The notes: a model not told the origin generated them from the sequence alone. Positions 10,669 to 30,700 are shown, numbered from the stretch's first letter. The stretch: 64,000 nucleotides of DNA from a virus (IMGVR_UViG_3300037189_004270:1-64000); one strand, 5' to 3'. Numbers and translations: made by a program.

Positions 10669-11205
10669 GTGCCTGACAAGAATTTTAAAGTCAAGAATGC
10701 CCTTGAATTAGGAACCGCATCAATAGTAACACCTGGCGGTACACTATCTTTACCAAGCGCAACCGATACGGTAATTGGTAGAGCAACGACTGACACATTA
10801 ACAAATAAGACTTTACTTAGTGCAGAGGAAATTACTACAATTTCCTCAACAGCCGCAACAGGAACAATTAACTTCGATGCAGTTACGCAGTCTATACTTT
10901 ATTACACCACAAATGCAAGTGGCAACTGGACCCTAAATATAAGGGGAAACTCTTCTACAACTCTTAGTTCAATTCTTCCAGTTGGAAGTTCTATAACTGT
11001 AGTATTTATGGTTAGTCAAGGAACTACGACTTTCTACCAGACCGGATTCCAGATAGACGGTACTTCTCATACCCCAAGGTGGCAGGGAGGATCTGCTCCA
11101 ACTGAAGGTAATGCTTCAGGTATTGATATTTATTCCTTCTCAATTACTAAGACCGCTGGAACGCCCACATACCTGACTATAGGAACGATGGCAGGCTTTG
11201 CGTAA
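10669..11205 (+). CDS. Fibre protein paralogous to the C-terminal half of the 21313 fibre, about 178 aa
   Basis: Begins VPDKNFKVKNALELG from a GTG at 10669, placed ten bases after GGGGAG; a GTG at 10660 abuts that site. The C-terminal domain shares YYTTNAS.NWT, RG.SSTTL, TGFQ.DG and TPRW with the protein at 21313-22011, so the two are clear paralogues. The domain looks like a small beta fold at the end of a fibre. Its last codon overlaps the ATG of the Cys-rich adhesin. The 21313 gene likewise overlaps the FFP-rich gene, so the arrangement is duplicated. Confidence 0.7.
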   Translation: MPDKNFKVKNALELGTASIVTPGGTLSLPSATDTVIGRATTDTLTNKTLLSAEEITTISSTAATGTINFDAVTQSILYYTTNASGNWTLNIRGNSSTTLSSILPVGSSITVVFMVSQGTTTFYQTGFQIDGTSHTPRWQGGSAPTEGNASGIDIYSFSITKTAGTPTYLTIGTMAGFA

Positions 11206-12347
11206 TGCCACTTTTATCATCTCGCGCCTCTGGATCTGTAAGAGCCTTTGGGCTGACAATTTTATCCGCATTGACTTCGGCAATTGATTTATTTACCAGA
11301 CCCGATCAATCTGGATTAGGAACGGTAAAGGGGCAAAGATGGAGGGTTTGGCGAGGAGTTTGGGGAATTGCAAGCAACAGGGCTTCTTCCTCTACCGCTT
11401 CCTCATCTTATCCATTAGCCACTCTTACATTTACAAAACAAGATGCTACTGTAAGTATAGGTGGGCCAAATCCAGGAACTGGGGCGGCATTCTGGGTAAC
11501 TGATGCAAATAATTGGTATTCAACTGTATATGTCCAGCAAGAGGTATGTCAAACTTGCACAAATTGTAATGCTTGGAATGCTAATAATTGTGCGGAAGCG
11601 TCAGGAGGATTCTGTGCTACATGGAATAACGTAAATCCCTGCTCCTACTGGCAATGTAGTGATGGTGGTACTAATTGTGGCAACTGTGCGCCAGGGGCGT
11701 TTAATCCCACAACTGGAGGAACTTGTCAAACTAGAAACCCCGACATCTGTGCCAACGTTAATGGCTCATTCTGCAAAGGCTTTAGCCAAGGTCCCTGCGT
11801 TAATTGGAATAATTTCGCTCCAAAAGGCTTTTGCTCTGGAAGGAGTCCGGACGTCTGTAGTGGTGGATGGAATACCTCTAACTGTGCAGCATGGAATACA
11901 GGTAACTGTACATCCTGGAATCCATTAGTATTTGGAAACTGTAATTCCTGGAATAATCCTGTATGTCAAGGAAATACACCAGGAAATTGCTCAAGCGCCA
12001 ACCCAGTTATCTGCAATGCTTTCAACCCTTCCAACTGTAATGCATTCTTTAGTTTTTCATGTAACTGTGTAACAGAAAATAGAATTAATATTATTTCATC
12101 TATAACTTCAACCGTCACCACTCTGGTTTCGACTCTTTGGTCAGGAACAATTGGATCTTTTAAAACAATTGTATCTGGAAATAGTGCAACTATCCAAGTA
12201 TACACTTCTACAAATTACACATCGCAAATAGGTTCAAATAGCGTACAAAACATATCTTCTCCGCAAAAATCAAAATTATTTGGTATAATTAAGGCTCCAA
12301 GTCCTATCGGGTCTGGCAATTCTATTGATGAATTTAGGGTTGAGTAA
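11205..12347 (+). CDS. Cysteine-rich putative tail-tip adhesin, 380 aa
   Basis: The N-terminus MPLLSSRASGSVRAFGLT resembles the terminal segment of phage adhesins. It is followed by a laminin G-like beta-sandwich start (TVKGQRWRVWRGVWGIASNRA ... YPLATLTF ... AAFWVTDANNWY). At about residue 113 this is interrupted by a low-complexity insert of roughly 180 residues with 24 cysteines, many spaced as NC..WN..NC, rich in Asn, Trp, Gly and Pro. After the insert the sandwich resumes (NIISSITSTVTTLVSTLW ... IDEFRVE). No signal peptide or enzyme motif is seen. I infer a disulfide-linked or metal-binding loop on a receptor-binding protein. It is followed by small Cys proteins and modification-type enzymes. 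Confidence 0.7.
   Translation: MPLLSSRASGSVRAFGLTILSALTSAIDLFTRPDQSGLGTVKGQRWRVWRGVWGIASNRASSSTASSSYPLATLTFTKQDATVSIGGPNPGTGAAFWVTDANNWYSTVYVQQEVCQTCTNCNAWNANNCAEASGGFCATWNNVNPCSYWQCSDGGTNCGNCAPGAFNPTTGGTCQTRNPDICANVNGSFCKGFSQGPCVNWNNFAPKGFCSGRSPDVCSGGWNTSNCAAWNTGNCTSWNPLVFGNCNSWNNPVCQGNTPGNCSSANPVICNAFNPSNCNAFFSFSCNCVTENRINIISSITSTVTTLVSTLWSGTIGSFKTIVSGNSATIQVYTSTNYTSQIGSNSVQNISSPQKSKLFGIIKAPSPIGSGNSIDEFRVE
12281..12289 (+). promoter_or_regulatory. Possible extended -10 box inside the adhesin gene
   Basis: TGGTATAAT lies within the coding sequence, 58 bases before the gene at 12347. It could drive the small genes that follow, but it also encodes part of FGIIK, so it may be chance. Confidence 0.25.
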
Positions 12348-13150: not shown

Positions 13151-13909
13151 GTGATAAAAAGGATAAGATTTATTCCATCCAGCATATCTGCGATGGAAAA
13201 TGTTCCTATGCCGTCGCCAGTTAAAAAACATATTCCCGAATGGTATAAAAAGGCAGAATATGCCATAGACAACAAGACTAATAAAAAAACTAGTAATTTG
13301 AGTGGAGATATTTCTGGTGGTTTAAAGTCATGCATACCCTTTCTAGACGTAATGTTGTCTGGATATGTGATGGAGACATGGGAGTCTATAGAAGTATATG
13401 AAAACTCAGAGAATAGTTTCAAGTGGAGATATGTAGAAAATAATCCATATACAGATGACATACAAGAAAAAATAAATATTACTGTATCTATGATAGGAGA
13501 AAGAGAAGGCGACTCAGGTCATACCATCCCCCGCCCAGCAGGGCATAGGAATAATCATATGATATGGAAAGGCCAATGGGGGGTTAGGCTTCCAAGAGGG
13601 TGGAGCCTATTGATTACTCATCCATTTAATAGATGGGATCTGCCATTTACAACTACTTCAGGGATTATAGATTCAGATGAATGGTGGACTAGTGGTAATA
13701 TGCCATTCTTTTTTAAAAATGGGTGGGTAGGTGTAATACCAAAAGGAACTCCGTTCTGCCAATTAATACCAATTAAAAGAAGTTCCTGGTCAGCATATAA
13801 AAGTGTTTTAAGTACTTCAAGATATAAAGATTTAAGCAATAAAGTTTCTGATAGAAATAATATAGGATGGTACAAAAAAAATATTTGGGTTAGAAAAGAA
13901 TATGACTAG
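13151..13909 (+). CDS. DUF6065-like jelly-roll protein, copy 1 (252 aa)
   Basis: Starts at GTG 13151 after GAAGAGAG, reading MIKRIRFIPSS. The core has VPM.SPVKKHIPEWYK near the N-terminus, then THPFNRWDLPF (H157), a SGIIDSDEW segment and GVIPKGTPFCQLIPIKRSSW. The same ordered motifs occur at 14888 and 25067, and a more distant version at 24367. The pattern fits a double-stranded beta-helix or jelly-roll fold; I cannot tell whether it is an enzyme or a structural or scaffold protein. All four copies lie beside prolyl-hydroxylase-like genes, suggesting a shared pathway. The next gene overlaps its stop. Confidence 0.65.
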   Translation: MIKRIRFIPSSISAMENVPMPSPVKKHIPEWYKKAEYAIDNKTNKKTSNLSGDISGGLKSCIPFLDVMLSGYVMETWESIEVYENSENSFKWRYVENNPYTDDIQEKINITVSMIGEREGDSGHTIPRPAGHRNNHMIWKGQWGVRLPRGWSLLITHPFNRWDLPFTTTSGIIDSDEWWTSGNMPFFFKNGWVGVIPKGTPFCQLIPIKRSSWSAYKSVLSTSRYKDLSNKVSDRNNIGWYKKNIWVRKEYD

Positions 13910-14915
13910 TATTTATGTTTCTATTCCTAATTGCCTAGATTCAGAATACTATAAGACACTAAATGATATATTTGCTAATTCAGATAATCCAAATAATATT
14001 TATGTTGGAACAGCACACTCAATACCATTTAAAAATAAAAAAAATATTTCTGAAATAAAAAATAAAGTTTCCGGCTATTCAAATGTTCGATCTAAGTTTT
14101 TAAATCATTACAGGAATCTAGGAGTGGGGTATGGAAGAACTGAATCTATGTCCATGTATGATGGAGAAGACTATGTTCTGCAAATAGATTCACACACAAT
14201 GCTAAAGCCATCCTGGGACTCCCTTCTTATCGGATATTATGAAGAGGCAAAGGACTATTCTAAAAATAGCAAAACAATACTTTCTGCCTACCTAACTAAA
14301 TATAAATACTTTGATAAAGATGTTAGAGGCTTTTATGATGATACTTTGCCGTCGTACCCGTGTTTTATAAATGAAGAAGAAATGTCCCAATTTGATCCGC
14401 ACTTTGACTCTTCTAAAAATTGGAAAGAAATATATTCTCCAATAACAAGGTGGATAACGGTATTTGAAGACAGTTTTTATGATTTTATAAAAACTAAGTT
14501 TTGTCCATTAAGAAAAATAAATGCAAATTTTATTTTTTCTGACGGGCAGTTTGCCGAAGACTATTCAAAAATAGTTCCGTTCCCCTTCTACTTTTTTGAA
14601 GAAGAGTTTATAATGTCAATAGAAGCCCACAACTTAGATTATTCATTTGTTTATCCAAAATTTAAACTACCCCTGGCACATTTATATAATGATTCCAGCA
14701 ATGAATTTTATTCAAGAGAACAGTCAATAAAACATACAAATAATCAAATATTATTTTTAACACAACAAAATATAATAAATTATTTTAATAAAAATAGTAG
14801 TAAAATAGAGTCTTACGCAAAATATGCTGGATTAACCTATCCAGAATTAAAATCTGAAAGTATTTTCTATATACCAGAAAGGCAGTCATGCAAGAAATTG
14901 AATTTATACCAGTAG
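13902..14915 (+). CDS. GlcNAc-transferase-like glycosyltransferase (Skp1 GnT family, PF11397-like)
   Basis: A 337-residue GT-A-type glycosyltransferase. Early motifs include VSIPNCLDSE and NVRSKF. The core GVGYGRTES (74-82) leads to DGEDYVLQIDSHT (87-99), with the metal-binding DSH in place of DxD, and then W105D106. This order matches the Glycosyltransferase (GlcNAc) family, which includes the Dictyostelium enzyme that adds GlcNAc to hydroxyproline of Skp1. Here it lies between two jelly-roll genes and one gene away from a prolyl-hydroxylase-like oxygenase. I infer that it could glycosylate a hydroxylated phage structural protein. The sugar and acceptor are not shown by sequence. It overlaps both neighbours. 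Confidence 0.75.
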   Translation: MTSIYVSIPNCLDSEYYKTLNDIFANSDNPNNIYVGTAHSIPFKNKKNISEIKNKVSGYSNVRSKFLNHYRNLGVGYGRTESMSMYDGEDYVLQIDSHTMLKPSWDSLLIGYYEEAKDYSKNSKTILSAYLTKYKYFDKDVRGFYDDTLPSYPCFINEEEMSQFDPHFDSSKNWKEIYSPITRWITVFEDSFYDFIKTKFCPLRKINANFIFSDGQFAEDYSKIVPFPFYFFEEEFIMSIEAHNLDYSFVYPKFKLPLAHLYNDSSNEFYSREQSIKHTNNQILFLTQQNIINYFNKNSSKIESYAKYAGLTYPELKSESIFYIPERQSCKKLNLYQ

Positions 14916-15622
14916 AAAATTATGGTAGATCCAGCATAGAGCCTATCCCAGCAGTAAAAAAGGTTCCAGGTTGGTTTAAAAGCATTCCTCCAATTAGAAA
15001 ATTTTCTGGCAATGATAAGGGGGACTTTACTATAAAAAAATGCATCCCCGTATTAGATGCTTTAACTATGGGATACTATTTAATTACCAAGTATGATCTA
15101 AACTGGAAAATTAATGAAAATGGAGAACATGTTTGTGAGTTCGATCAAAAATTAGTAGAGGGCGGGGATAAGCCCATAAGTATGCATCCATTCGATCAAA
15201 TTAAAAATATAGAGTTGAATGAAATATATAATGAATATGCTTATAAATTTGCCAGTCCATATTTAATCAAAACACCACCAGGATATAGTTGTATCTTTAC
15301 ACATCCATTTAATCAAATATCCCCATTTTATACACTTACGGGAGTTGTTGATACTGACATGCATCCATTAGCAGTACAATTTCCATTCCTCATGCTTAAA
15401 GGATTTGAAGGTAAAATTTCTGCTGGGACACCAATTGTTCAAATAATTCCTTTTAAAAGAGAAGACTGGAAAATGTATAATGTTTCTCCAGATAGAAGAG
15501 ATAAAAGAGATAGTGACATATCAATGGATGAATTCATGTCAAATAGATACGACATGGAAAGTGGACTCCCCGCCATCGGTCCATATAAAAAGAAATACAG
15601 AGTAAAGAAAAAATATCTTTAA
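14888..15622 (+). CDS. DUF6065-like jelly-roll protein, copy 2 (244 aa)
   Basis: Begins MQEIEFIPVENYGRS with AAAGG seven bases upstream and overlaps the glycosyltransferase gene by 28 bases. It carries IPAVKKVPGWFK, THPFNQISPF (H139), TGVVDTD and GTPIVQIIPFKREDW, in the same order as copy 1. The HPFN motif is invariant among the three close copies, so it may be a binding or catalytic site. Its position between a glycosyltransferase and a 2-oxoglutarate oxygenase supports a joint role; the function is unknown. Confidence 0.65.
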   Translation: MQEIEFIPVENYGRSSIEPIPAVKKVPGWFKSIPPIRKFSGNDKGDFTIKKCIPVLDALTMGYYLITKYDLNWKINENGEHVCEFDQKLVEGGDKPISMHPFDQIKNIELNEIYNEYAYKFASPYLIKTPPGYSCIFTHPFNQISPFYTLTGVVDTDMHPLAVQFPFLMLKGFEGKISAGTPIVQIIPFKREDWKMYNVSPDRRDKRDSDISMDEFMSNRYDMESGLPAIGPYKKKYRVKKKYL

Positions 15623-15631
15623 GGAATTATT

Positions 15632-16222
15632 ATGCATAAAGAACTAGCGCCAGGAGTATTTGAATACTTATTTCCAGAGGATTTAGCAAAAGATTGTGTT
15701 AAGTATTTAGAAAAAATATCTTATGATGAGTGGCAGGATTCTCTGGTTGGCGGGGGCAGAACAGCATTAAGCATAAGATCTAGCGAAGGATACAATATTG
15801 ATAATGTTCAATCATTATCTGGTAAAATTAGAGAAAGTTTCTATGGATGTGTTAAAGATTATGTAAAACACTTTGATACATCTGTTCTACAAGATGAGGG
15901 TCTGAATGTATTAAAATACGAGGGAGCAGATAACTATACATACCACGTTGATGCTTCATGGAATATGTATAGAACTATTTCTGCGCTAATATATCTTAAT
16001 CCCAATAAATATGAGGGTGGACATACGCATTTTAAATATTTTGACCTATACATAAAGCCAGAAAAACCTTCAATAGTTTTATTTCCATCTAATTATTTAT
16101 ATTTACATTCTGCAAAGCCTGTTACAAAGGGGCGAAAATATGTTATCGTCACCTGGCTAAACGATAAGCCTATAGAATTGATAAATAGTAATCATGGGTC
16201 TGGTTGTGCCTGCTCACGATGA
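15632..16222 (+). CDS. Prolyl-4-hydroxylase-like 2-oxoglutarate/Fe(II) oxygenase, copy 1 (196 aa)
   Basis: A non-haem iron oxygenase of the P4H family; it would hydroxylate a protein residue (most likely proline) using O2 and 2-oxoglutarate. The iron ligands are H105, D107 (HVD) and H159, and the 2-oxoglutarate-binding residue is K169, ten residues after H159 as in human P4H. The YEGG.THFKYFDLYIKP segment and FPSNYLYLHS are typical. The C-terminus ends with CACSR, an unusual short Cys tail. The methyltransferase gene starts inside its stop codon. It is the only oxygenase in the first adhesin block; five more lie in the second. Confidence 0.85.
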   Translation: MHKELAPGVFEYLFPEDLAKDCVKYLEKISYDEWQDSLVGGGRTALSIRSSEGYNIDNVQSLSGKIRESFYGCVKDYVKHFDTSVLQDEGLNVLKYEGADNYTYHVDASWNMYRTISALIYLNPNKYEGGHTHFKYFDLYIKPEKPSIVLFPSNYLYLHSAKPVTKGRKYVIVTWLNDKPIELINSNHGSGCACSR

Positions 16223-18240: not shown

Positions 18241-21200
18241 ATGGCTAGAAGAATAGTTGTAGAGGATTACACATTTACTCCATCTACAAGAACGATTGTC
18301 GTAAATCGTTATATTAGACAGGAACATCTTACTCTTATCACAAATGTTAGCAGAAACCAAGTTATTTATAACTTCTCTGACCCTGCCCTTACTGCTACAT
18401 CATATTTAGCAGTATCAACAAATACGCGCCAGGGTGCGACACTAAATAGAGACACGCTTGTATACTCTGCTGCTAGCGGAACAACTACCATTGTCCTTAA
18501 CTACAATACTGCTGGTATGTCTTCAGCAGATAAGTTGCAGATTCTCATAGATGAGCCAGCAGAAACTTTTAGACCAGATGAGGTGTATAGAGATCCTGTC
18601 GATAAATTAAGAGTCTCAACTCCACAGTCATTAATTGATACAGATTTTGAGTATTCTCCACAGCCATCAAAGTGGGAAAGCCTAAGCCTAAGTTCAAACT
18701 ATCCATCATTCTATTCAAGAACTACTGGAGCCACCGCCTTTGACCTAGCATCAATTGTTGGCGGCAATCAAAGTCCAAGGTCTACTATTACAGTAACAAC
18801 AAATGTTGTGCATGGACTTAATGCTGGAGATGTTGTAGTTGTACAAGATTCAACTAGCGCATTCACAGACGGTACATTTCTTGTAGATTCAGTCCCTACT
18901 ACAACAACATTTACATACACCGCGTTTGGAGTAGTTAATGGATCTGTTCAAGACTCTTCATATACAACAATTTATGGCGGCGGTATCTTTGACGGTGCTA
19001 GAATTCCATTAGCGGTATCAGCAACAGCCATGGTATATTCTGGAACATCTATTACTGTAACTACTGCATCTGCACATGGGTTAGTTCCAGGTGCCCCCAT
19101 TTTAGTTAGGGGGGTAACTGCAACTACTAATCCACCAAATGGTAACTGGGTAGTGGAGACAGTTGCCACACCAACAACGTTTACATATACAGCATCTGCC
19201 GCACCTACAGGAACACTAGCATCAGGGACTAACTTTGCTACTGCATTTTTATATGTTCGTCCAGATGGATATCAGCAACATAGAGCCTTAGACGGCGGTG
19301 TTTTAATTACAACTGGCGGTCCATCTAATGGATCACAAATGATTAGACAGACAAGAAGATACTTTAGATACCAATCTGGTAAAGGTGTTCAATATTCAAC
19401 TGGAATAAAGTTTACCCCAACGTTCGATATTGATACTATTTCTGCTAGTGGTAATACTGTTACTGTAAATACAATACAAGATCATAATCTTCAAATTGGA
19501 ACATCAATTAGAGTTGAAGGTGTTGTATCTTCTGCTGGCAATGCAGATAGTGATAGATATAATATTACCGCAAATGTTGCTAGTGTTACTGGATCAAAAT
19601 CATTCACATATACGACTACAGCAATTCCTACAGATACTGCTCCAGGTGGAACTAATATTTTCGTAACAGCAGTAAACTGGAAAGGATCTGCTGTACGAGC
19701 GGGTCTTTATGATGATCAGAACGGATTCTTCTTTGAGTATGACGGACAAACAGTTTATGCATGTAGAAGAGATTCAGTAAAAGAACTTTTTGGTCGTGTG
19801 AATGTAACTAGTGGTTCAAGCACTATTACTGGAACGAATACGAGATTTTTGAGTCAATTGGTTGTCGGAGAATATGTTGTGGTTAAGGGACAAAGTTACT
19901 TAATTACAAGTATTACTAATAATACTAGTATGACTGTAGCACCCGCATATCGCGGAGCAACAAGAACAAATTCTAGATACCTAAAGACTCAGACATATAG
20001 AATTCCTCAGTCTGCATGGAACATGGATTCAATGGACGGTACTGGTCCATCTGGATATAACATGGATATCTCAAAGATGCAGATGGCCTATATTGACTAC
20101 ACTTGGTACGGCGCTGGACACATTAGATTTGGATTCCGTGGACCCAATGGAGATATTGTCTATTGCCACAAAATGCCAAACAATAATATTAATACATCTG
20201 CCTACATGCGTTCTGGAAACCTTCCTGGAAGGTTTGAGGCAATTAACTATGGACCAACCACTAGATTGGTAGCAGGAGCAAGCATAGCAAGAGGTTCCGC
20301 ATTTGCCCCTGCTGATGGAACATTATATGTAGAAGATGCTGTCAACTGGCCTTCAACTGGCTGGATTCTAGTAAAAGACAATGTAAATTGTGAAATGATT
20401 AGGTATACAAGCATTGGATCATACAATTCTTCTGCTCGCGGGTATCCAATATCAGGATTATCAAGAAGAACATCATGGACATATGCTGGAGTTAATCCTG
20501 CTGGATCATTCTCCTCTACAGCATATAACCTAGGTGGAACTTCTTCTAACGTAACATTTACACCTGATTCATCATTAGGTGGAGTAGGATCAAATGGTCA
20601 GGCTTCTGTAAGTTATGTATACAGCGATTGCGCTCCAGTTGTAAGCCATTGGGGTGTTTCTGTGATCATGGATGGTCGTTATGATGATGACAAGTCTATT
20701 ATCTTTACCGCTGGTATGAATAGATTCATGTCAATTTCTACTGGCGCACAAAGACCACTCCTTGCCATTAGAATTGCTCCTTCAGTAGATTCTGGAATTG
20801 GAAGAAACTTCGGGGTAAGAGAAATTGTTAATAGAATGCAGTTAACTCTCAACAGCATGGAAGTCTTTTCTGCTGGACAATTCCTAATTGAAGGAATTCT
20901 TAACCCACAAACCATTACTGGTGGAGGACTAACAATTCCTAATGATTGGTCTACAATATCTGTTGGATCTGGATCGCTGGCACAGGTAGTCTATTTTGAC
21001 GCTACTTCAGCATTCAATGCCGTCGCAGCAACAGCGTCTGGAGCATTTACTGGAGGAGATAGAGTATTTGCATTCTATGCAGAAAACTCTGGTGGAACAA
21101 ATCCATCTGCTACATCCTTCGACCTATCTAGGGCTAGAGATCTAGGAACATCTATTCTTAGTGGTGATGGATCAGCGGGAACAGTTAATCCAGGTTATCC

Positions 21201-21312: not shown

Positions 21313-22011
21313 ATGCCTATTAATAGAATTAGGTTAGACGATGTTGATATTAGGAACATTACAACTACTACAACATTACTAAGTGAAACTATTGCAGATT
21401 TATCAGATAGAGTAGATTTAAAAATCAATGCAAACTCCCCAGCACTAACTGGAATTCCCACTGCACCTACTGCTCCCGTAGATACTAACACTACCCAAAT
21501 TGCAAACACCGTCTTTGTGTTGAATCAAGGTTATCTAAAATCTACAACAGCACAATCAACATATTCTCCTATAGCAAATCCTACTTTTACAGGAACGGTA
21601 AATGCAGGAGCAGCATTAATAACTAACGAGGTTCTGGAGAATGCTAACATAATTGCTTCTGCCATCCCTGCTACTGCAAATATTGATATGGTAACATCAG
21701 GAATTCATTATTACACAACTAATGCTTCTGCAAACTGGACATTTAATTTTAGAGGCGATTCATCAACAACATTAAATAACCAGATGGCAATTAATCAAGT
21801 TACTACAGCAACAATATTAGTAACAAATGGTGCAACACCTTTTAGGGCAACTGGATTTCAGGTTGATGGATCAGCCATTACACCTAGATGGGCAGATGCC
21901 CTTGTTCCCGCAGCGGGGAATGCTAATAGCATAGACATTTATACTTTTACTCTTATAAAGATAGGAGCAAGTGCATTTACCGCACTGGCTAGTCTAGCAA
22001 GGTTTGCATAA
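21313..22011 (+). CDS. Fibre protein paralogous to the 10669 gene, 232 aa
   Basis: Begins MPINRIRLDDVDIRN after AAGGGA. An N-terminal fibre repeat (SPALTGIPTAPTAP, NTTQIANTVFV) leads to a C-terminal domain with HYYTTNASANW, RGDSSTTL, TGFQVDG and TPRW, the same domain as in the protein at 10669. Its stop codon overlaps the ATG of the FFP-rich gene, just as the paralogue overlaps the Cys-rich gene. It probably carries that neighbour or pairs with it at the fibre tip. Confidence 0.75.
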   Translation: MPINRIRLDDVDIRNITTTTTLLSETIADLSDRVDLKINANSPALTGIPTAPTAPVDTNTTQIANTVFVLNQGYLKSTTAQSTYSPIANPTFTGTVNAGAALITNEVLENANIIASAIPATANIDMVTSGIHYYTTNASANWTFNFRGDSSTTLNNQMAINQVTTATILVTNGATPFRATGFQVDGSAITPRWADALVPAAGNANSIDIYTFTLIKIGASAFTALASLARFA

Positions 22012-22916
22012 TGCCATTTGTTTCAAAATTTTCTGGGCATGGTAGAGTTCCAGGAATTCACAAGCCAGCCGCTCCACCAATACCATCAGTAACTAATACT
22101 GCAACGACATTCGATACTTTAACATTTACTATTGGAAATTATAACGCTACATGGACTTATACTGGGTCTATATCTCCAAGTGCTGGAACAATTACTTTTA
22201 GTGGCTCTACAGTAACTATTACTGGTCTTACTGGAAGTACCGCATATACTTTAACGGTAACTGCTAGAGGTTCTGGTGGAAGTAGTTCTGGAACTGGTTC
22301 TGCAACTACTAACGCACCACCACCATTTTTCCCACCATTCTTTCCGTTCTTCCCATTCTTTCCTCCGTTCTTCCCATTCTTTCCACCATTCTTCCCATTC
22401 TTTCCTCCGTTCTTCCCAGGGTTTGGCCCCTTCTTTCCAGGATTTGCTCCCCCTCCACCCCCATCAAAAACCGCTCCCTCAAACTACATAAAGGATGGTA
22501 TAAAGATTACGCTTTTAACTAGTGAATATGGATATTTAGAGCCCAAGTACCTAACAGAAGAGGACTCTTTGGCATGCATAGATGTTGAAATTACGGATCT
22601 TGGAGTGAAGGTAATTGAAGCCACTAGCACAAATATTGTTAATGTTCAATCAACATATGACAATATAAAAATGGTTTATATAAATGGAGACTCATATCCA
22701 GAAAATGCAATGCTTCTGTCAACAAAAGACGGGGTATCGAAATTTGTAAAATCAACAGAATTAGATGAGTCATATTACATATTTGATTATGAGTCTATGG
22801 AATTTATAAAGATAGAAAGCGTATCCGTTGAAGATTTTTATGGAATAATATACAATATAGAGTGTAGCCCTAACAATAATTATGTTATCCAAAAAACAAT
22901 TGGCTACTTCGAATAA
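22011..22916 (+). CDS. FFP-repeat adhesin with FnIII-like and Hint-like domains, 301 aa
   Basis: Residues 28-100 form a fibronectin type III-like domain. Residues 103-151 are almost only Pro and Phe, with ten Phe-Phe-Pro units, two GF[GA] breaks and a final five-proline run. From about residue 157 the sequence looks like a Hint domain (INGDSYPENAMLL, KFVKSTEL, IYNIECSPNNNYVI). It lacks the catalytic N-terminal cysteine and the terminal His-Asn, so it would not splice. The following five hydroxylase-like genes make the Pro run the best candidate substrate. The function is inferred; I find no precedent for this architecture. Confidence 0.65.
   Translation: MPFVSKFSGHGRVPGIHKPAAPPIPSVTNTATTFDTLTFTIGNYNATWTYTGSISPSAGTITFSGSTVTITGLTGSTAYTLTVTARGSGGSSSGTGSATTNAPPPFFPPFFPFFPFFPPFFPFFPPFFPFFPPFFPGFGPFFPGFAPPPPPSKTAPSNYIKDGIKITLLTSEYGYLEPKYLTEEDSLACIDVEITDLGVKVIEATSTNIVNVQSTYDNIKMVYINGDSYPENAMLLSTKDGVSKFVKSTELDESYYIFDYESMEFIKIESVSVEDFYGIIYNIECSPNNNYVIQKTIGYFE
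22317..22463 (+). repeat. FFP coding repeat (Pro/Phe low-complexity tract)
   Basis: The DNA encodes ten Phe-Phe-Pro units using variable codons (TTC/TTT and CCA/CCG/CCT), with a repeated TTCTTCCCA pattern. The number of units is likely to vary between isolates by slippage or recombination. Confidence 0.75.
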
Positions 22917-22933
22917 CTAAAAGAAAGAATGCA

Positions 22934-23662
22934 ATGAACGATTGGCTAACTAAAAGTCGTGAAGAAACTCATGCCCATAGAATGCCGGATAGGTTTTTAA
23001 ATGGTACATTAGTAACCAATCCAGCGCTGGGAATAAATGTGTATAACATGGCTATACCAGATAAAGTATGTAGTGATTCGATAAGAACCCTTGAAGAAAA
23101 TTTAGGTAGTGATAGAGAATATAACTGGAAGCCTGCCATCGTAACTGAATCAAGCGAGCCTCTTCTAGAGGCTAGATTCTGCATGGACTTCAAAGTAGGA
23201 CAAAACTGCCTTGGAGAAAGAAGTAATACCAATTCAGTATTTTATGATATGCATGAATCTGTTTTTCGCAGTATTTATCCATGCTCTATAGATTATGGAT
23301 CTTACTGGGGTGTGGGCATAAACTACTTTGAGGTATTTAACTTTGTTAAGTATGAAAGTCCTGGGCACCATTTCAATATTCATGCGGATCATGGCCCAGC
23401 CTATGTTACTACAGTTTCAATAGTTGCATATTTAAATGAAGACTATCATGGAGGAGAATTACATTTTCCCAGATTTGATCTTACTTTAAAGCCAAAAAAG
23501 GGTGACGTAGTTATATTCCCATCTACCTTTATTTATGAGCATTCTTCTGAACCAATGATTTCAGGAACTAAATATTCAGTCGTCGTGATGACAGATTATA
23601 ATTCTCGTGGAAAACTTAGATATTACGCATATCGTGAACAAGATGATCAATTGGTATATTAG
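22934..23662 (+). CDS. Prolyl-4-hydroxylase-like 2-oxoglutarate/Fe(II) oxygenase, copy 2 (242 aa)
   Basis: A P4H-family oxygenase with all core residues: iron ligands H150, D152 (HAD) and H203, and 2-oxoglutarate-binding K213 ten residues after H203. The YHGGELHFPRFDLTLKP segment is typical. It is the first gene after the FFP-rich adhesin, 18 bases downstream. It resembles the next gene (HADHG in both, and the SGTKYS end), so the two are a recent tandem pair. The N-terminal 120 residues presumably bind the substrate. Protein-proline hydroxylation is inferred from the family. Confidence 0.87.
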   Translation: MNDWLTKSREETHAHRMPDRFLNGTLVTNPALGINVYNMAIPDKVCSDSIRTLEENLGSDREYNWKPAIVTESSEPLLEARFCMDFKVGQNCLGERSNTNSVFYDMHESVFRSIYPCSIDYGSYWGVGINYFEVFNFVKYESPGHHFNIHADHGPAYVTTVSIVAYLNEDYHGGELHFPRFDLTLKPKKGDVVIFPSTFIYEHSSEPMISGTKYSVVVMTDYNSRGKLRYYAYREQDDQLVY

Positions 23663-23668
23663 GTAGTC

Positions 23669-24367
23669 ATGTATAGTTTTGAAGAAGTATCAGACAGAAT
23701 TAAAAATTTTTATACTCAAGATCAACAAACTTGGTCATCTGTTGAAGAACTAGCCGATGGCGTATTTGTTTTTCATGACGTTATTCCTCACAACACCACC
23801 TCTTTTCTGGAGGACGTTATTCAGGATACTTCTAACAATTATGGCTATATGGAGGCTATGGTTGGTTACGGAATGAAAATGCCAGAGTATAGAGACTGTC
23901 TAGATTTTAAGTACAAAAGAAGTGACATAGAAAATGATAACTCCATTTCGGGAATGTTACTAAAAAAATTATGGGATAGCGTGTACTCTAAATGCCTTCC
24001 TGCCGTTCAGTCCTACTGCAAACTCTTTAACATCGGAGAACTTAGGTACTGGGAGGCTATGAATTTTGTTAAGTATGGGCCAGGAAAGCACTTCCAGGAA
24101 CATGCAGATCACGGATATTCTTACAATTGCGTAGTATCTTTAGTAGGATACCCTAATGATAACTATGAAGGTGGAGAGTTGGAATTTAGACTACAGAAAT
24201 TAAAAGTAAAGCCAAGGGCGGGAGACCTTTTTGTATTTCCCTCTAACTTTATGTATCCACATAAATCATTACCAGTTATAAGTGGTACAAAGTATTCTAT
24301 TGTTACAATGCTAGATTATTCAGATAAGTACCACCGTCCAGAATTTTATCAAGAAACTGGTTCATAG
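23669..24367 (+). CDS. Prolyl-4-hydroxylase-like 2-oxoglutarate/Fe(II) oxygenase, copy 3 (232 aa)
   Basis: Iron ligands are H145, D147 and H198, with K208 for 2-oxoglutarate. NYEGGELEF, VKPRAGDLFVFPS and YPHKSLPVISGTKYS match copy 2 closely, including the HADHG motif. The N-terminal 120 residues are different from copy 2, suggesting a different substrate or site. Its last base overlaps the GTG of the next gene. Confidence 0.87.
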   Translation: MYSFEEVSDRIKNFYTQDQQTWSSVEELADGVFVFHDVIPHNTTSFLEDVIQDTSNNYGYMEAMVGYGMKMPEYRDCLDFKYKRSDIENDNSISGMLLKKLWDSVYSKCLPAVQSYCKLFNIGELRYWEAMNFVKYGPGKHFQEHADHGYSYNCVVSLVGYPNDNYEGGELEFRLQKLKVKPRAGDLFVFPSNFMYPHKSLPVISGTKYSIVTMLDYSDKYHRPEFYQETGS

Positions 24368-25077
24368 TGAACATTAGTGTGTATAGAGAGCCCAACTCTC
24401 CTACCCAACTTGATCAGTTGCCAATGACAAGAGACTGGATGGACTTAACTTTCGATAGACATGCATATCAATGTTTCCCAGTATCTATGGCTAACCGCGC
24501 AGGGCTGGGTATATCATTTAAAGAAGATGTGTCATTCGTCTGGGACGGAATAAATACTTCTTCAGACCATCATATAAGGATAATTAAGGGAGAAAATTTT
24601 GCACATTCCAAGAGAGGAAATCGTACCGTAAGTTTTGACACAGGATTGTACTTTTCCCCAGAGAGTAATCTGTCTTTGATGACTATGACTCCACCAAATA
24701 TATTTTTAGATGGAATTCAATGTATCAGTACCATTGTCAGCACTTCTGCATTAGTTGGAACCTTTCCTATAGCACTAATGGTTACTAAGCCAAATGTAGA
24801 AATTATTATTCCAGCAGGAACTATAATTGCTTCAATACTTCCAATTTCTCTATCAGAATTAAATAATATAGAGATTGATATAATTTCAAAACGTCCAGAT
24901 TTCATGTCTGATGCAAACTGGAATAACAGGATGCGCGAGCGAGGGGAAGCCTCTCAGAAACTAAATTCTAAGGGAGAGTGGACGCATTTTTATCGAAATG
25001 CTGTAGACCATAATGGAGAGCCTTATGGAGAACATGAGGCAAAAAGAATAATAATGAAAGTAAACGATGAAGATTAA
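24367..25077 (+). CDS. DUF6065-like jelly-roll protein, divergent copy (236 aa)
   Basis: Begins with GTG 24367 overlapping the previous stop, reading MNISVYREPNSP. The segment CFPVSMANRAGLG followed by VSFVWDG resembles the start of DUF6065 proteins. The later NLSLMTMTPPN, then IIIPAGTIIASILPISLSEL, follows the order of motifs in the other jelly-roll copies, although HPFN is replaced by PPN. This makes it a distant member of that family. It lies between hydroxylase-like genes. Function unknown. Confidence 0.6.
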   Translation: MNISVYREPNSPTQLDQLPMTRDWMDLTFDRHAYQCFPVSMANRAGLGISFKEDVSFVWDGINTSSDHHIRIIKGENFAHSKRGNRTVSFDTGLYFSPESNLSLMTMTPPNIFLDGIQCISTIVSTSALVGTFPIALMVTKPNVEIIIPAGTIIASILPISLSELNNIEIDIISKRPDFMSDANWNNRMRERGEASQKLNSKGEWTHFYRNAVDHNGEPYGEHEAKRIIMKVNDED

Positions 25078-25783
25078 ATTCATATCTAATAGGCCGTGGC
25101 TGAATAAGAGTAGTAAGAATGTCCCCATGTCTGCTGTTAAGGCTATTCCAGATTGGTATGTTTCAGAAAGCAGATATCTAAAAAATCATGACGGAGAAGA
25201 TATAATTGGTCCCGATGGAGCCAAAGTCCCATCGTGGAAAGCCTGCCCAGCGATATATGACATACTTGGCACGGGATATGTCCTAAGAACTCCATGCGAC
25301 ATCACCTTTTATCTAGAAGGAGACTGCCTAGAAGTAAAAATAAATCCTAGGTATGCAGACTTTATTCATAAGCGTAGCGAAATGCCAGGATTTATGCAGC
25401 CGGAAGGGTATAGGAAGGAACACTTTGCCTGGTGGCCAGATTGGGGCATAGACACTCCAAAGGGCTATAGCGTTTTATGGTCACATCCATTTAATAGATT
25501 TGACCTTCCATTTTTAAATACTACTGGTGTGGTTGACAATGATAAAGTTAATCTTCCTGGCACGGTGCCATTCTTCATAAGAGAAGGCTGGGAGGGAACT
25601 ATACCTCAAGGAACTCCATATCTTCAACTTTTACCATTCAGGAGAGATGACTGGGAATCCGAACATGAGTTTCCTGATGAACATATAATGTATAATAATA
25701 ATGTAGAAAATAGCGCTAAATTTCGCGTTCCAGGCGGTGGAGTTTACTTGAATCAAGTCTGGTCTAGAAGAAAGTACCTATAA
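25067..25783 (+). CDS. DUF6065-like jelly-roll protein, copy 3 (238 aa)
   Basis: Carries VPMSAVKAIPDWYV near the start, SHPFNRFDLPF (H140), TTGVVDNDK and GTPYLQLLPFRRDDW, the same ordered motifs as the genes at 13151 and 14888. It overlaps the preceding gene by 11 bases and its stop overlaps the ATG of the following oxygenase. The repeated pairing of this family with hydroxylase-like genes in both blocks suggests a partner function such as substrate delivery, a second modification step, or a structural component that is modified. Confidence 0.65.
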   Translation: MKIKFISNRPWLNKSSKNVPMSAVKAIPDWYVSESRYLKNHDGEDIIGPDGAKVPSWKACPAIYDILGTGYVLRTPCDITFYLEGDCLEVKINPRYADFIHKRSEMPGFMQPEGYRKEHFAWWPDWGIDTPKGYSVLWSHPFNRFDLPFLNTTGVVDNDKVNLPGTVPFFIREGWEGTIPQGTPYLQLLPFRRDDWESEHEFPDEHIMYNNNVENSAKFRVPGGGVYLNQVWSRRKYL

Positions 25784-26433
25784 TGGAACATCCTAAGTCA
25801 ATCACTCCATCAGGATTCTTTGGCGATTCACCAGAAAATATTGTATCGCTTGAGAACTTTATATATCCTGAGGAACTAGAAAAATTAAATAGTTTTATTA
25901 GGACAAACGATATCTGGGATGTTACCGAAACCCATTACAATGAGAATGGTACTGTAATATATGATTCGGGATATTGGGCTAATAGAGTAATCACTCACAG
26001 GAATATGGTTAAAGCCAATGCTGAAATTCCAGATATAATTCATGGAATGGTGTTAAGATTAAAGTTAGTTGTCGATGACTTTTTTAATGTGGATGCTGAA
26101 CCGACAGGCCCAGCAATGGTGAGATGGCTGCCTGGTCAATTGCAGATGCCACACGCAGATAAAGAATTACATACTGGGCCAGATGCTGGTAAGCCTAACG
26201 ACTTTCCCTGGTATGATTTAGCAGGACTATTCTACATTAATGATGATTACGAAGGTGGAGAACTTTACTTTCCAAATCAAGGAATACAATTTAAGCCTAA
26301 GGCGGGAGCAGCATATTTCTTTCCAGGAGATATGAATTACATACATGGAGTTACTGAAGTTAAATCAGGAATTAGATACACCGTTCCATTCTTTTGGACC
26401 ATAGCAAAGCATACAGGGGAGAAGCATCCTTGA
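25783..26433 (+). CDS. Prolyl-4-hydroxylase-like 2-oxoglutarate/Fe(II) oxygenase, copy 4 (216 aa)
   Basis: Iron ligands are H124, D126 and H188, with R198 ten residues after H188 in place of lysine. YEGGELYFPNQGIQFKP and YIHGVTEVKSGIRYT are typical. This copy, with the next two, forms an Arg subgroup, while copies 1-3 use Lys. The N-terminal half (VTETHYNENGTV) is unlike copies 2 and 3. It is translationally coupled to both neighbours. Confidence 0.87.
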   Translation: MEHPKSITPSGFFGDSPENIVSLENFIYPEELEKLNSFIRTNDIWDVTETHYNENGTVIYDSGYWANRVITHRNMVKANAEIPDIIHGMVLRLKLVVDDFFNVDAEPTGPAMVRWLPGQLQMPHADKELHTGPDAGKPNDFPWYDLAGLFYINDDYEGGELYFPNQGIQFKPKAGAAYFFPGDMNYIHGVTEVKSGIRYTVPFFWTIAKHTGEKHP

Positions 26434-27158
26434 TTATTGATGGTATAAATAAAGAAGACTTTATCATATATAAAGATGAGCCAAACTCTAAAGGTGAGTT
26501 AGGAATTACTGATAATAGAATAGTAGAGATACAAAAATTTGTCACCCCAGATACTGCGGAGAAGATGGTCAGGTACTTTGAGCATAAGGCAGAAATGTGG
26601 GGTCCAATTGCTTTTTATGGATCTTCTGGCATGGGCCTGCATCAGAATTCTTCTGAACTTCCAGAATTTGGGCTTCCCGAGAACTTTTTCGGACTAATTG
26701 CAAAGAAGTTTCAAGAGGCCGTAGAATCTATATTCGGTAGAGAGGTAAAGCCTAATACTTCTCATGCCCAAAAATGGGATGTAGGAGGATACGCATCTCC
26801 CCACTCTGATAACTCAGACTTTGAAGGCGTCCCTAATTCATTTCAAATTAATAAATATGTAGGAATTCTCTATTTGAACGAAGATTATGATGGCGGCGAA
26901 TTATATTTTACAGAGCATGATATAAGCATTAAGCCATCAGCCTACTCTTTTATCTCCTTCCCAGGGGGCGTAGAAAATATCCATGGAGTTAGCGAAATAA
27001 CTAATGGTACAAGATATACCATGGTTTCATTTTGGGACTTTAAAGAGGCAGAATATTCTGATCAATTAAAAGAAGAGTGGGATCAAGAATTGCTTAGAGT
27101 TCGTGCAGAGCAAGAAAAGCAAAGAGAAGAGTGGGATAAGGGCAATAAGTATGCGTAG
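26430..27158 (+). CDS. Prolyl-4-hydroxylase-like 2-oxoglutarate/Fe(II) oxygenase, copy 5 (242 aa)
   Basis: The start is TTG 26430, which overlaps the previous TGA and has GGGGAG about nine bases before it; a TTG at 26394 lacks such a site. Iron ligands are H125, D127 (HSD) and H185, with R195 for 2-oxoglutarate. DYDGGELYF and NIHGVSEITNGTRYT are clear. The C-terminus has a charged helix (QELLRVRAEQEKQREEW), which could mediate contacts with other proteins of the cluster. Confidence 0.85.
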   Translation: MIIDGINKEDFIIYKDEPNSKGELGITDNRIVEIQKFVTPDTAEKMVRYFEHKAEMWGPIAFYGSSGMGLHQNSSELPEFGLPENFFGLIAKKFQEAVESIFGREVKPNTSHAQKWDVGGYASPHSDNSDFEGVPNSFQINKYVGILYLNEDYDGGELYFTEHDISIKPSAYSFISFPGGVENIHGVSEITNGTRYTMVSFWDFKEAEYSDQLKEEWDQELLRVRAEQEKQREEWDKGNKYA

Positions 27159-27732
27159 CATTTTGAATAAGCCAGATATCATAGAGGGTGTATATTACTA
27201 CAAAGGAATGATTCCCAATCCACCGGAACTTGTGGAACTTATTGAAGAAACTAATGCATCTTTAACGAATGAAGAAATTATTTCAAAGTGGTGTACATGG
27301 GAGTCGTCAGATGGTATTAGCAAGTTTGGTAGTACCAAGTCAGTAGATGACTCTAAAATAGCAACCACAAGTGACGAGATTAAGTATATCTATGGAGTTA
27401 TAATTTCTGCGATTCGCATAGCATCTAGGCACTATGAACATTCAAATAACTTAGATTTGGGCAGGCAGTCTCCAATATCTATTTCCAAATATTCTGAAGG
27501 TAAGTTTATGGGTCCGCATACAGATGAAAAAACTGGCGCTCACATTTCTGGTGTGTTGTATCTTAACGATGAATATTCTGGTGGAGAATTAGGTTTCCCT
27601 AATCAGGGATTTTCTATAAAGCCTGAGGCCGGAAGCATGGTAATATTTCCTTCTACTCAGCCATATGTTCATGATCCACAGCCAGCGAGCGGGGCTGAAA
27701 GGTATATTTGCCCTGTATTCTGGTACAAATAA
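27151..27732 (+). CDS. Prolyl-4-hydroxylase-like 2-oxoglutarate/Fe(II) oxygenase, copy 6 (193 aa)
   Basis: The ATG at 27151 overlaps the previous stop (ATGCGTAG). Iron ligands are H123, D125 (HTD) and H174, with R184 for 2-oxoglutarate. EYSGGELGFPNQGFSIKP is shared with copy 4. The region before the core is short (about 115 residues). It closes the row of modification genes; a leaderless promoter for the next gene follows directly. Confidence 0.85.
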   Translation: MRSILNKPDIIEGVYYYKGMIPNPPELVELIEETNASLTNEEIISKWCTWESSDGISKFGSTKSVDDSKIATTSDEIKYIYGVIISAIRIASRHYEHSNNLDLGRQSPISISKYSEGKFMGPHTDEKTGAHISGVLYLNDEYSGGELGFPNQGFSIKPEAGSMVIFPSTQPYVHDPQPASGAERYICPVFWYK

Positions 27733-27746: not shown

Positions 27747-30700
27747 ATGTCCTACTCTCAATTAGTTCTAGCAGATAAGCCATTAGGATATTGGGAATCC
27801 CCAGATTTTGGCGTAGAGAACCTACTAACACAGAATCAGTATTCTATAGAAACTTCTACTTCTGGCTGGTCTGCAGTAAACTCTAATACTTCAATATCAA
27901 GAGTGACCTCTGATTCATATATTGGATCTGCATCATTAAAGTTGACAGCAAATTCAGCAAGTCAGCGTGGTGAGGTTAGAATTTCTTCTGGATCTCGCAT
28001 TCAGGTAACTCCTGGTAAAAGATATACGATGCTTGCTAGAGTAAAAAGGGCGCAGGGAACTAGAAATGCTTCAATAAGAATTGAATATTTTACTACTCAA
28101 AGTGGATCTACATTATCAGAGGCAGTTAGATACTCTAACGAATTTCAACTATCTAGTGACTCCTGGACAACTATATATCATACTGACTTAATATTCACCC
28201 CCAATGACAACGACTACTTTGTATCTTGGGGTATTGCCACTAATGGTTCAGGATCTATCGGAGATGAACTTTTAGTAGATGGCGTTCAGTTCTATGAGGG
28301 TAGCGTATATCAAATAGAAGATAGAGTATCTACCAATAATATAAATATATTTGAATACGATCATAAAAATATTAAGCCCATAATATTTGGTACAGATAGT
28401 TGTGTAAAACTGACTGAGCAAGTTTCCCCGAATTTGAATAACAATTATAAATTGTTTATATCTGGCACAGAAAATAAAGATTCAACCATTGAAATGTGGT
28501 TTGCTATAGAACAGCCGCCATCCTATAGACATACACTTTTGAAGATAGGAACATTCCTAAACTGCTACATTGAAAGAGATAGAATATTCATAGAATCAGG
28601 CGGGAAGAGTGCAAGCATACAGGTAGTAGACTGGGAAAAACAACACTATGTTGCCATTTCATATTTAAACAGAAAGGTAGATCTTTATTTAGATGATAGA
28701 GATCCTGTATCTGTTTCACTAGACGAAGACTTCAGGTTTGATGACATAATAAATACCACACTTATACCATCCGTGGTGTTTGGCCCATGCTCTAGCCCAA
28801 GAAACTTAATTTTCAACCCGTCCTTTGAGGATGGGACAATAGGATGGGAATTACATGGATCAGGAACGACTATATCTAGTGTTTCTACAGATTCATTTTC
28901 TGGAAATAAAAGTTTAAGCATTTCTAGATCTGCAAGTTCAAACTCTGGGGCAAAGATTGTAGATAGATTACCAGTTAAAAAATACAATAAGTATCAGTTA
29001 TCAACTCAAGTTAAAATTCCTTCTGGTCAACAAAGCACTACCTTGAAGTTAATATGTAAAACATACGAAGATGTTTCAGCAGGATCTGTAATAAATAACT
29101 ATGAAGATCAAATAGTAATATCTAGCGCAGACTCATGGCAAGAACTATCTCTTTCATTTACCCCTGGATATAATGAAAATTATATAGAGGTCTATGTTGT
29201 AAGTTCTGTTTCTGGAACAGCAGGACAAGTATTTTTAGTAGATGCCTGCCTTCTAGAAAAGTCAGACTACCCAGTTGCCTGGGACGAACTTTCTTATGCC
29301 AGCGATCCACTTTTTATATCTTCAATAGCCTTGTACCCCTTTGCGTTGCCTAGAGATAAAATAATAAAAAGAATCAATTATGCTACCCAAGATCTTTCAG
29401 ATTCTCTTTCAATTAAATTCTCTGGAGATAGAATAAATACAGATTACAATTCTATTTACGCCACTAAAGAAGTCGATATTTTAGAATTGGCAAAAACAGA
29501 TCAAGTAACCTCACAGAATCTTTTATACACAAATAATGGATTCTATATGCCATCAGTAAAGCCTGCAGTTATCTCATCTGGACTGTATGGCGGGTCCTAT
29601 TCTTTAAACTCTAATGGAGTTCTACTATCTGGTGATTATTTTATCAACATAGATAATGTAGATAAATACTTTAATCCATATTCATCTACAATAAAAATGC
29701 AAATTCAGTTAGACTCTACATCTGGCGACGGGACCTTACTTACAATAACACCAGTAACTAATGCCTATGCAATATCAATTAAAAAGCAATCTAATAAGAT
29801 AGTAGGAGTCGTCCTTAACGATTTTGGAGATCTATCTCCAGACGTACTATTTCAGTCCAACACTCTAACATCAGGTCAGTATAACCTTGCGTTTAATTTT
29901 ACAGAATTATCAATGTCTGTAAAAGTCGGGGCGCAAGAGTTTAATGATATAAGCATTCCTAATATACAAACGTATACTCAGATAGTTTTGGGCAACTTCC
30001 CCTCATCTGATGATGCGTTCCCAGATAGAATTAGAAACTTTGGAGTAGATCCACTAACAGCGTTTAATAGTATAAATTGGTATTCTCCAGAATTGTATAT
30101 GCTTAGATTTAATGGAAATCTAAATGTATCTCAAAAGGGTAAGATAGAATATACGGCTACCAGCCTGGATACATCTAATAACAGCATAGTTACTTTTAAT
30201 GACGCTAGCAAGCCGTACCTTTTTATAAATGATGAAATTATCTACGAGCCTTCTAATATTCCAAACAATAATTATGAAAATCCAGAGTCTATAAAAATAT
30301 ATGCAGAAGTGACTACTGAAGATGCATACTTAGATAATCCTATAATTAACAATTTATACGCTTCTTCATTTAATTCAAATGAAGTTATCTCGTCACTATC
30401 GAACTTTGTGCTGACCCCAAATGTGGATATAAGTTCTAATTATGTAGATAGCCCATATATTATAAAGAGTAGAGAGACAAACGTGCTAGCACATGACTCA
30501 AACATAGGGGTAAAATTTACTAGAGGAATATCATCTGGGTGTAGAATAATTAAGAATACATCAGATTATAAAATTATTGAATTTATCTTTAAAATTACCA
30601 AGTATCCAAATAGATCAGAAGTTTATAATATATTTGATATATCTGGAGCAACATCTATAGGTCTTTCCTACTCATCGGCGGGATTGAATAAGTATGGAGC

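Follow-up and report, generated by a model that had tools for sequence, protein, structure and literature searches.

The window, that is, the whole 64,000-nucleotide stretch of DNA that was analysed (IMGVR_UViG_3300037189_004270:1-64000), is part of a 70.6 kb IMG/VR virus record that carries portal, tape-measure, and other tail genes. Within it, a row of plus-strand genes was delimited in which the gene for a Phe/Pro-rich protein is followed by five PF13640 oxygenase genes with two DUF6065-type genes among them. Successive genes of the row are spaced by 17, 6, -1, -11, -1, -40, -56, and 14 bases, with overlap at five of the eight junctions. The genes upstream at 18241 and 21313 have tail-fibre or virion matches, and the gene downstream at 27747 encodes a 1117-aa protein with carbohydrate-binding domains.

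The first gene of the row (22011..22916, +) encodes a protein of 301 aa, here called the rod protein, which comprises an FN3-like domain, a Phe/Pro rod, and a C-terminal domain with a predicted intein-like (Hint) fold. The N-terminal domain scored 18.7 bits against PF00041, for which the cut-off is 25, and several relatives exceeded this cut-off. The predicted model of the C-terminal domain was intein-like by Foldseek (2lwy, TMt 0.72), and the corresponding domains of relatives matched intein/Hint profiles weakly; the Hint catalytic Cys1, block-B His, and terminal Asn are absent from the window protein. Over the rod the structure model was weak, with a pLDDT below 50 at residues 123-164. Among 276 rod proteins, the C-terminus was long (Hint-size) in 102, with a Cys within its first 25 residues in 59 of these, short and Cys-rich in 52, similar to the start of an S74 chaperone in 6, and otherwise short in 116. 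An S74 chaperone gene, of a kind found with tail fibres, lies directly after the rod gene in loci L081 and L116; the rod protein, which in the window is adjoined by genes with tail-fibre or virion matches, is a putative tail fibre. In these two loci (L081:7117-7395 and L116:4301-4588) the end of the rod protein resembles the start of the chaperone domain, and the remainder forms a separate ORF immediately downstream. A protein of approximately 145 aa with WNG/FLCDN-type motifs recurs between the rod gene and the first oxygenase (L026, L033, L048, L078, and others); those tested gave no Pfam match. Searches of cultured phages with DNA and protein returned no relative of the rod protein, and two weak matches span approximately 80 residues of the FN3 region.

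The rod itself, PPPFFPPFFPFFPFFPPFFPFFPPFFPFFPPFFPGFGPFFPGFAPPPPP (22317..22463, +), contains ten FFP units in 49 residues, with 23 Pro, 22 Phe, and 3 Gly, and a six-frame translation of the window contains no other such run. FFP was observed 12 times in the proteome of the entire window, compared with approximately 1.5 predicted by composition. Across relatives the rods consist of 44% Phe and 39% Pro, and charge is almost absent. In FFP rods the aromatic pair was FF in 1742 cases, YF in 131, and FY in none, so that Tyr is restricted to the first place; these counts point to a constraint at the level of the peptide. In each of the eight pairs of rod genes listed whose N-termini are 99-100% identical, the two rods differ in length, which is what a spacer assembled from repeat units would show. 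Identical N-terminal domains with rods of unequal length were seen in L042/L049, L251/L252, and L443/L541.

The five oxygenases of the row, all on the plus strand, are located at 22934..23662 (oxygenase 1, PF13640 4.3e-12), 23669..24367 (oxygenase 2, 9.4e-14), 25783..26433 (oxygenase 3, 2.4e-7), 26394..27158 (oxygenase 4, 3.1e-8), and 27103..27732 (oxygenase 5, 2.4e-12), the start codons of the last two being uncertain. Their PF13640 scores of 32-53 bits are all above the Pfam cut-off of 27, and the HxD, the distal His, and the K/R are present in all five. The earlier note had described a gene with ten FFP units followed by five prolyl 4-hydroxylase (P4H)-like oxygenases with an intact HxD...H...K/R pattern, and this was confirmed by Pfam and by the motif check. 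The catalytic pattern, scored with a lenient regular expression, was found in 1048 of 1063 distinct relative oxygenases of at least 170 aa; eight of the 15 pattern-negative proteins were inspected, of which seven end at the edge of the locus and one (L032) is broken inside it. A sequence profile built from six oxygenase-2 orthologues was compared with the PDB, and the nearest solved structures were a Bacillus anthracis prolyl 4-hydroxylase (1e-4) and then procollagen lysyl hydroxylases (0.02), both modest E-values. The window oxygenases also match phrog_61, a mostly cyanophage family.

Between oxygenases 2 and 3 lie a DUF6065 protein (24367..25077, +; PF19541 102 bits) and a DUF6065-like/phrog_7084 protein with a predicted all-beta core (25067..25783, +; phrog_7084 5.8e-33, no Pfam match). 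The predicted model of the latter (pLDDT 86.7) had its best fold matches among dUTPases, with a low TM-score, and the label of jelly-roll proteins previously given to this pair is therefore loose, the predicted fold being more dUTPase-like by a weak resemblance. The DUF6065 proteins probably act as helpers of the oxygenases. A DUF6065-like gene is also present in Halorubrum phage HF2 (L143, 8857-9741), where the displayed region has no oxygenase annotated, and the family thus occurs outside the module of rod and oxygenases.

Upstream of the row, the window contains a second, smaller enzyme set that the first description had missed. It is headed by a second repetitive protein with a Cys/Asn/Trp-rich insert (11205..12347, +) and comprises a DUF6065-like protein (13151..13909, +) that scored 16.7 bits against PF19541, under the cut-off, and aligns with the family; a PF11397 GlcNAc-type glycosyltransferase (13902..14915, +; 86.6 bits); a DUF6065/phrog_7084 protein (14888..15622, +; phrog_7084 8.4e-38, PF19541 32.5 bits, above the cut-off); and a sixth P4H-like oxygenase (15632..16222, +; PF13640 1.6e-13). 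A similar order, with a Cys/Asn-rich-insert protein followed by DUF6065-type genes, one P4H-like oxygenase, and sometimes a PF11397 transferase, was seen in L553, L554, and L557-L560. The Cys-rich inserts differ considerably among relatives of the protein at 11205-12347, and many of these relatives, though not all, have such enzyme genes downstream. The glycosyltransferase had no match among PDB sequences. PF11397-like transferases were present in 18 fetched loci and lie outside the core of the module; they occur near oxygenases in L224, L234, L238, L240, L242, L248, L250, L255, and L445, and in several of these loci they are situated between the rod gene and the enzymes.

Linkage of rod and enzymes was assessed across IMG/VR from both sides. 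Oxygenases were present in 17 of 17 relatives of the rod protein fetched by sequence. IMG/VR was then sampled with a DNA pattern encoding FFPxFFPFFP, which takes no account of the enzymes and was found in at least 119 loci. Among the matches listed, the run falls within an open frame in 116, and 86 of the 116 have an oxygenase in the locus; where at least 2.5 kb of downstream sequence was available, 74 of the 82 FFP loci listed had an oxygenase gene, on the strand of the rod, no more than 2.5 kb away. Twenty-seven records had no oxygenase near the rod locus; 20 of them exceed 15 kb, and 18 of these 20 carry at least three PF13640 genes on the contig. Two rod-bearing records run against the pattern: G060 (38 kb) lacks any PF13640 gene, and G054 (54 kb) carries a single one. 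The second grammar, xFF(A/S/G)PP, was scanned separately and found in at least 120 loci; among those listed, 79 rod genes had enough downstream sequence, and an oxygenase was located within 3 kb in 71. Two repeat grammars, alike in having Phe-Phe with a Pro after it, thus occur with the same types of enzyme. In cellular genomes, one of 45 pattern matches encodes an FN3-FFP protein, and oxygenases were found at that locus only.

In the reverse direction, six oxygenase-2 orthologues were used as queries and the best 80 loci were kept, 74 of which were new. At least 2.5 kb was available upstream of the first module gene in 46 of these best loci; 45 carry a rod in the strict sense, and the 46th (L191) carries an FFPSFP variant. 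Of 28 loci with shorter flanks, too short for absence to be judged, 13 had a rod and 15 did not; in two of them (L234 and L248) the upstream sequence shows a glycosyltransferase gene and one more gene. The tally of 59 oxygenase-2 loci made first was discarded in favour of the unbiased 46, since it had counted short-flank loci only if a rod was seen.

A sample chosen for neither rod nor enzymes was assembled from 50 records of at least 23 kb that were reached through relatives of the portal and RNR genes. A rod was present in 16 of the 17 records with at least three PF13640 genes versus 1 of the 33 others (Fisher p approximately 6e-11, kinship ignored; the portal relatives of this phage are enriched for close kin). 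Of the multi-oxygenase records, 11 had the FFP pattern, one the FFPSFP variant, and four xFF(G/S/A)PP repeats upstream of the enzymes; the seventeenth contig stops before the position of the rod. The only rod-positive record among the other 33 (G044) has xFF(A/S/G)PP at the very end of its contig, which is cut inside the rod. The IMG/VR records are related (rod N-termini fall into 81 clusters when grouped at 70% identity and approximately 15 at 40%), and for this reason the linkage counts are not independent events. The linkage of rod and oxygenase block is close and is conserved in many uncultured aquatic phages. Co-occurrence among relatives, which the earlier note had named as the thing to look for, was strongly positive in both directions. 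In the records with sufficient readable flank, its counter-case, a multi-oxygenase block that lacks a Pro-rich fibre, did not turn up; rod-less records do occur among those that have just one or two PF13640 genes.

Because the linkage is reciprocal, the rod is the best candidate substrate of the oxygenases, and on balance we favour, with reasonable confidence, the reading that this operon encodes a fibre-like protein together with the enzymes that hydroxylate the rod of that protein. From the linkage, the architecture, and the catalytic residues, all of which were computed, we infer that the rod may be the substrate, proline the modified residue, the virion the location, and the role mechanical. 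The first gene would give a protein of the order FN3, Phe/Pro rod, and C-terminal domain; the 2OG-Fe(II) oxygenases, aided by the DUF6065 proteins, would hydroxylate many residues of the rod, most likely prolines, during or soon after translation. Hydroxylation would render the very hydrophobic rod soluble and fix its conformation, and the modified rod would serve as a spacer that keeps the C-terminal domain off the virion. PF13640 members act on many substrates, however, and the targets of the five to nine enzymes at a locus may be several. The original proposal, hydroxylation by the phage of proline in its own fibre, is upheld as to the association, through the linkage and the intact enzymes, and not as to the chemistry, which is presumed; 'adhesin' is likewise a presumptive label, the modified part would be the rod and not the binding tip, and the stiffening and masking roles suggested for hydroxylation are guesses.

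An unlikely alternative is that the targets of the enzymes are neighbouring fibre proteins, for instance at C-terminal tips or at the Cys/Asn-rich insert in the protein at 11205-12347, and that the rod is merely adjacent. The second set of oxygenase and DUF6065 genes, which stands behind a Cys-rich protein both in this window and in loci L553, L554, and L557-L560, is consistent with this, as is the short Cys-rich tip of 52 of the 276 rod proteins, whereas the large enzyme block follows rods with very different C-termini (102 Hint-size, 52 Cys-rich, and 116 other short), which leaves the rod as the shared feature.

A target in the rod that is not proline, such as the Phe or Tyr side chains or the small residue before PP, is judged quite improbable. 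FFP(P) and xFF(A/S/G)PP share FF and then Pro and have no single Pro context in common, and the absence of Tyr from the second position (131 YF, 0 FY) would also suit an aromatic target; however, the nearest solved structures are prolyl and lysyl hydroxylases, and we know of no PF13640 enzyme that hydroxylates peptidyl Phe. It is very unlikely that the oxygenases are general genes of auxiliary metabolism or DNA repair travelling with the fibre locus by chance: published annotations do assign roles of this kind, DNA repair in phages of the CRP-810 type being one example (PMC11288001), but the linkage is reciprocal and recurs with two repeat grammars. Least probable is that the oxygenases act on the host or the host's translation apparatus, for instance in aiding ribosomes through Phe/Pro runs, for although ribosomal proteins are known to be hydroxylated by some 2OG oxygenases and the rods contain long PP-rich runs, at least five divergent enzymes beside a structural gene would be an odd layout for one ribosomal target, and the second enzyme set adjoins a protein without Phe/Pro runs.

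If rod hydroxylation is correct, these phages build fibres of hydroxylated Phe/Pro material. A 1999 report by Eriksson on the viral prolyl 4-hydroxylase of PBCV-1, cited in PMC9301287 and PMC7019647, is said, in its title, to describe 4-hydroxyproline in viral proteins and peptide substrates. The likeness lies in a P4H encoded by the virus, as predicted here; PBCV-1, however, is an algal virus, whereas the present operon has at least five divergent enzymes and is headed by its candidate substrate. Animal collagen and plant hydroxyproline-rich glycoproteins likewise combine a repetitive Pro-rich structural protein with dedicated peptidyl hydroxylases, a pairing that appears here by linkage, and the (A/S/G)PP context of the second phage grammar recalls plant hydroxyproline motifs. 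Unlike collagen, the window rod has no Gly-X-Y triplets, being made of FFP/FFPP units with Gly at 3 of 49 positions, and rods in general are Phe/Pro-dominated and nearly uncharged. In the Skp1 pathway PhyA is followed by Gnt1, which we take to belong to PF11397, and the neighbourhood of a P4H-like gene and a PF11397 GlcNAc-type transferase in the window and some relatives resembles it, whereas the phage transferase is confined to 18 fetched loci and is not core. Gnt1 (CAZy GT60) acts on the hydroxyproline of Skp1 (PMC6939170), and by analogy this hints at glycosylated hydroxyproline in a minority of phages. A widespread class of phage fibres, in which a Phe/Pro rod would be hydroxylated, and in some perhaps glycosylated, by a dedicated operon as a counterpart of collagen and plant hydroxyproline-rich proteins, is proposed more tentatively, as a possibility somewhat short of even.

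Lists of auxiliary metabolic genes often include the prolyl-hydroxylase-like genes of viruses, and in one survey the use that viruses make of these genes 'remains cryptic' (PMC9301287); a constant pairing with a structural protein made of repeats offers a specific, testable substrate for the oxygenases. In the literature searched, with bioRxiv and most subscription journals outside its range, no description of the rod and oxygenase layout or of hydroxylated Phe/Pro fibre material was found. Phage 2OG-Fe(II) oxygenases of PHROG 61 have been likened to human EGLN3 in the Phold paper (PMC12774648), and the phages of that family differ from the present ones in that no rod homologue was found in cultured phages. 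Extension of the linkage to cyanophages was considered and dropped, some of their oxygenases flanking tail-fibre genes and others lying away from any rod. In Synechococcus phage S-SCSM1 (L264, 981-10003) a cluster of 2OG oxygenases surrounds a short tail fibre protein, which carries a long RQPR-type low-complexity insert.
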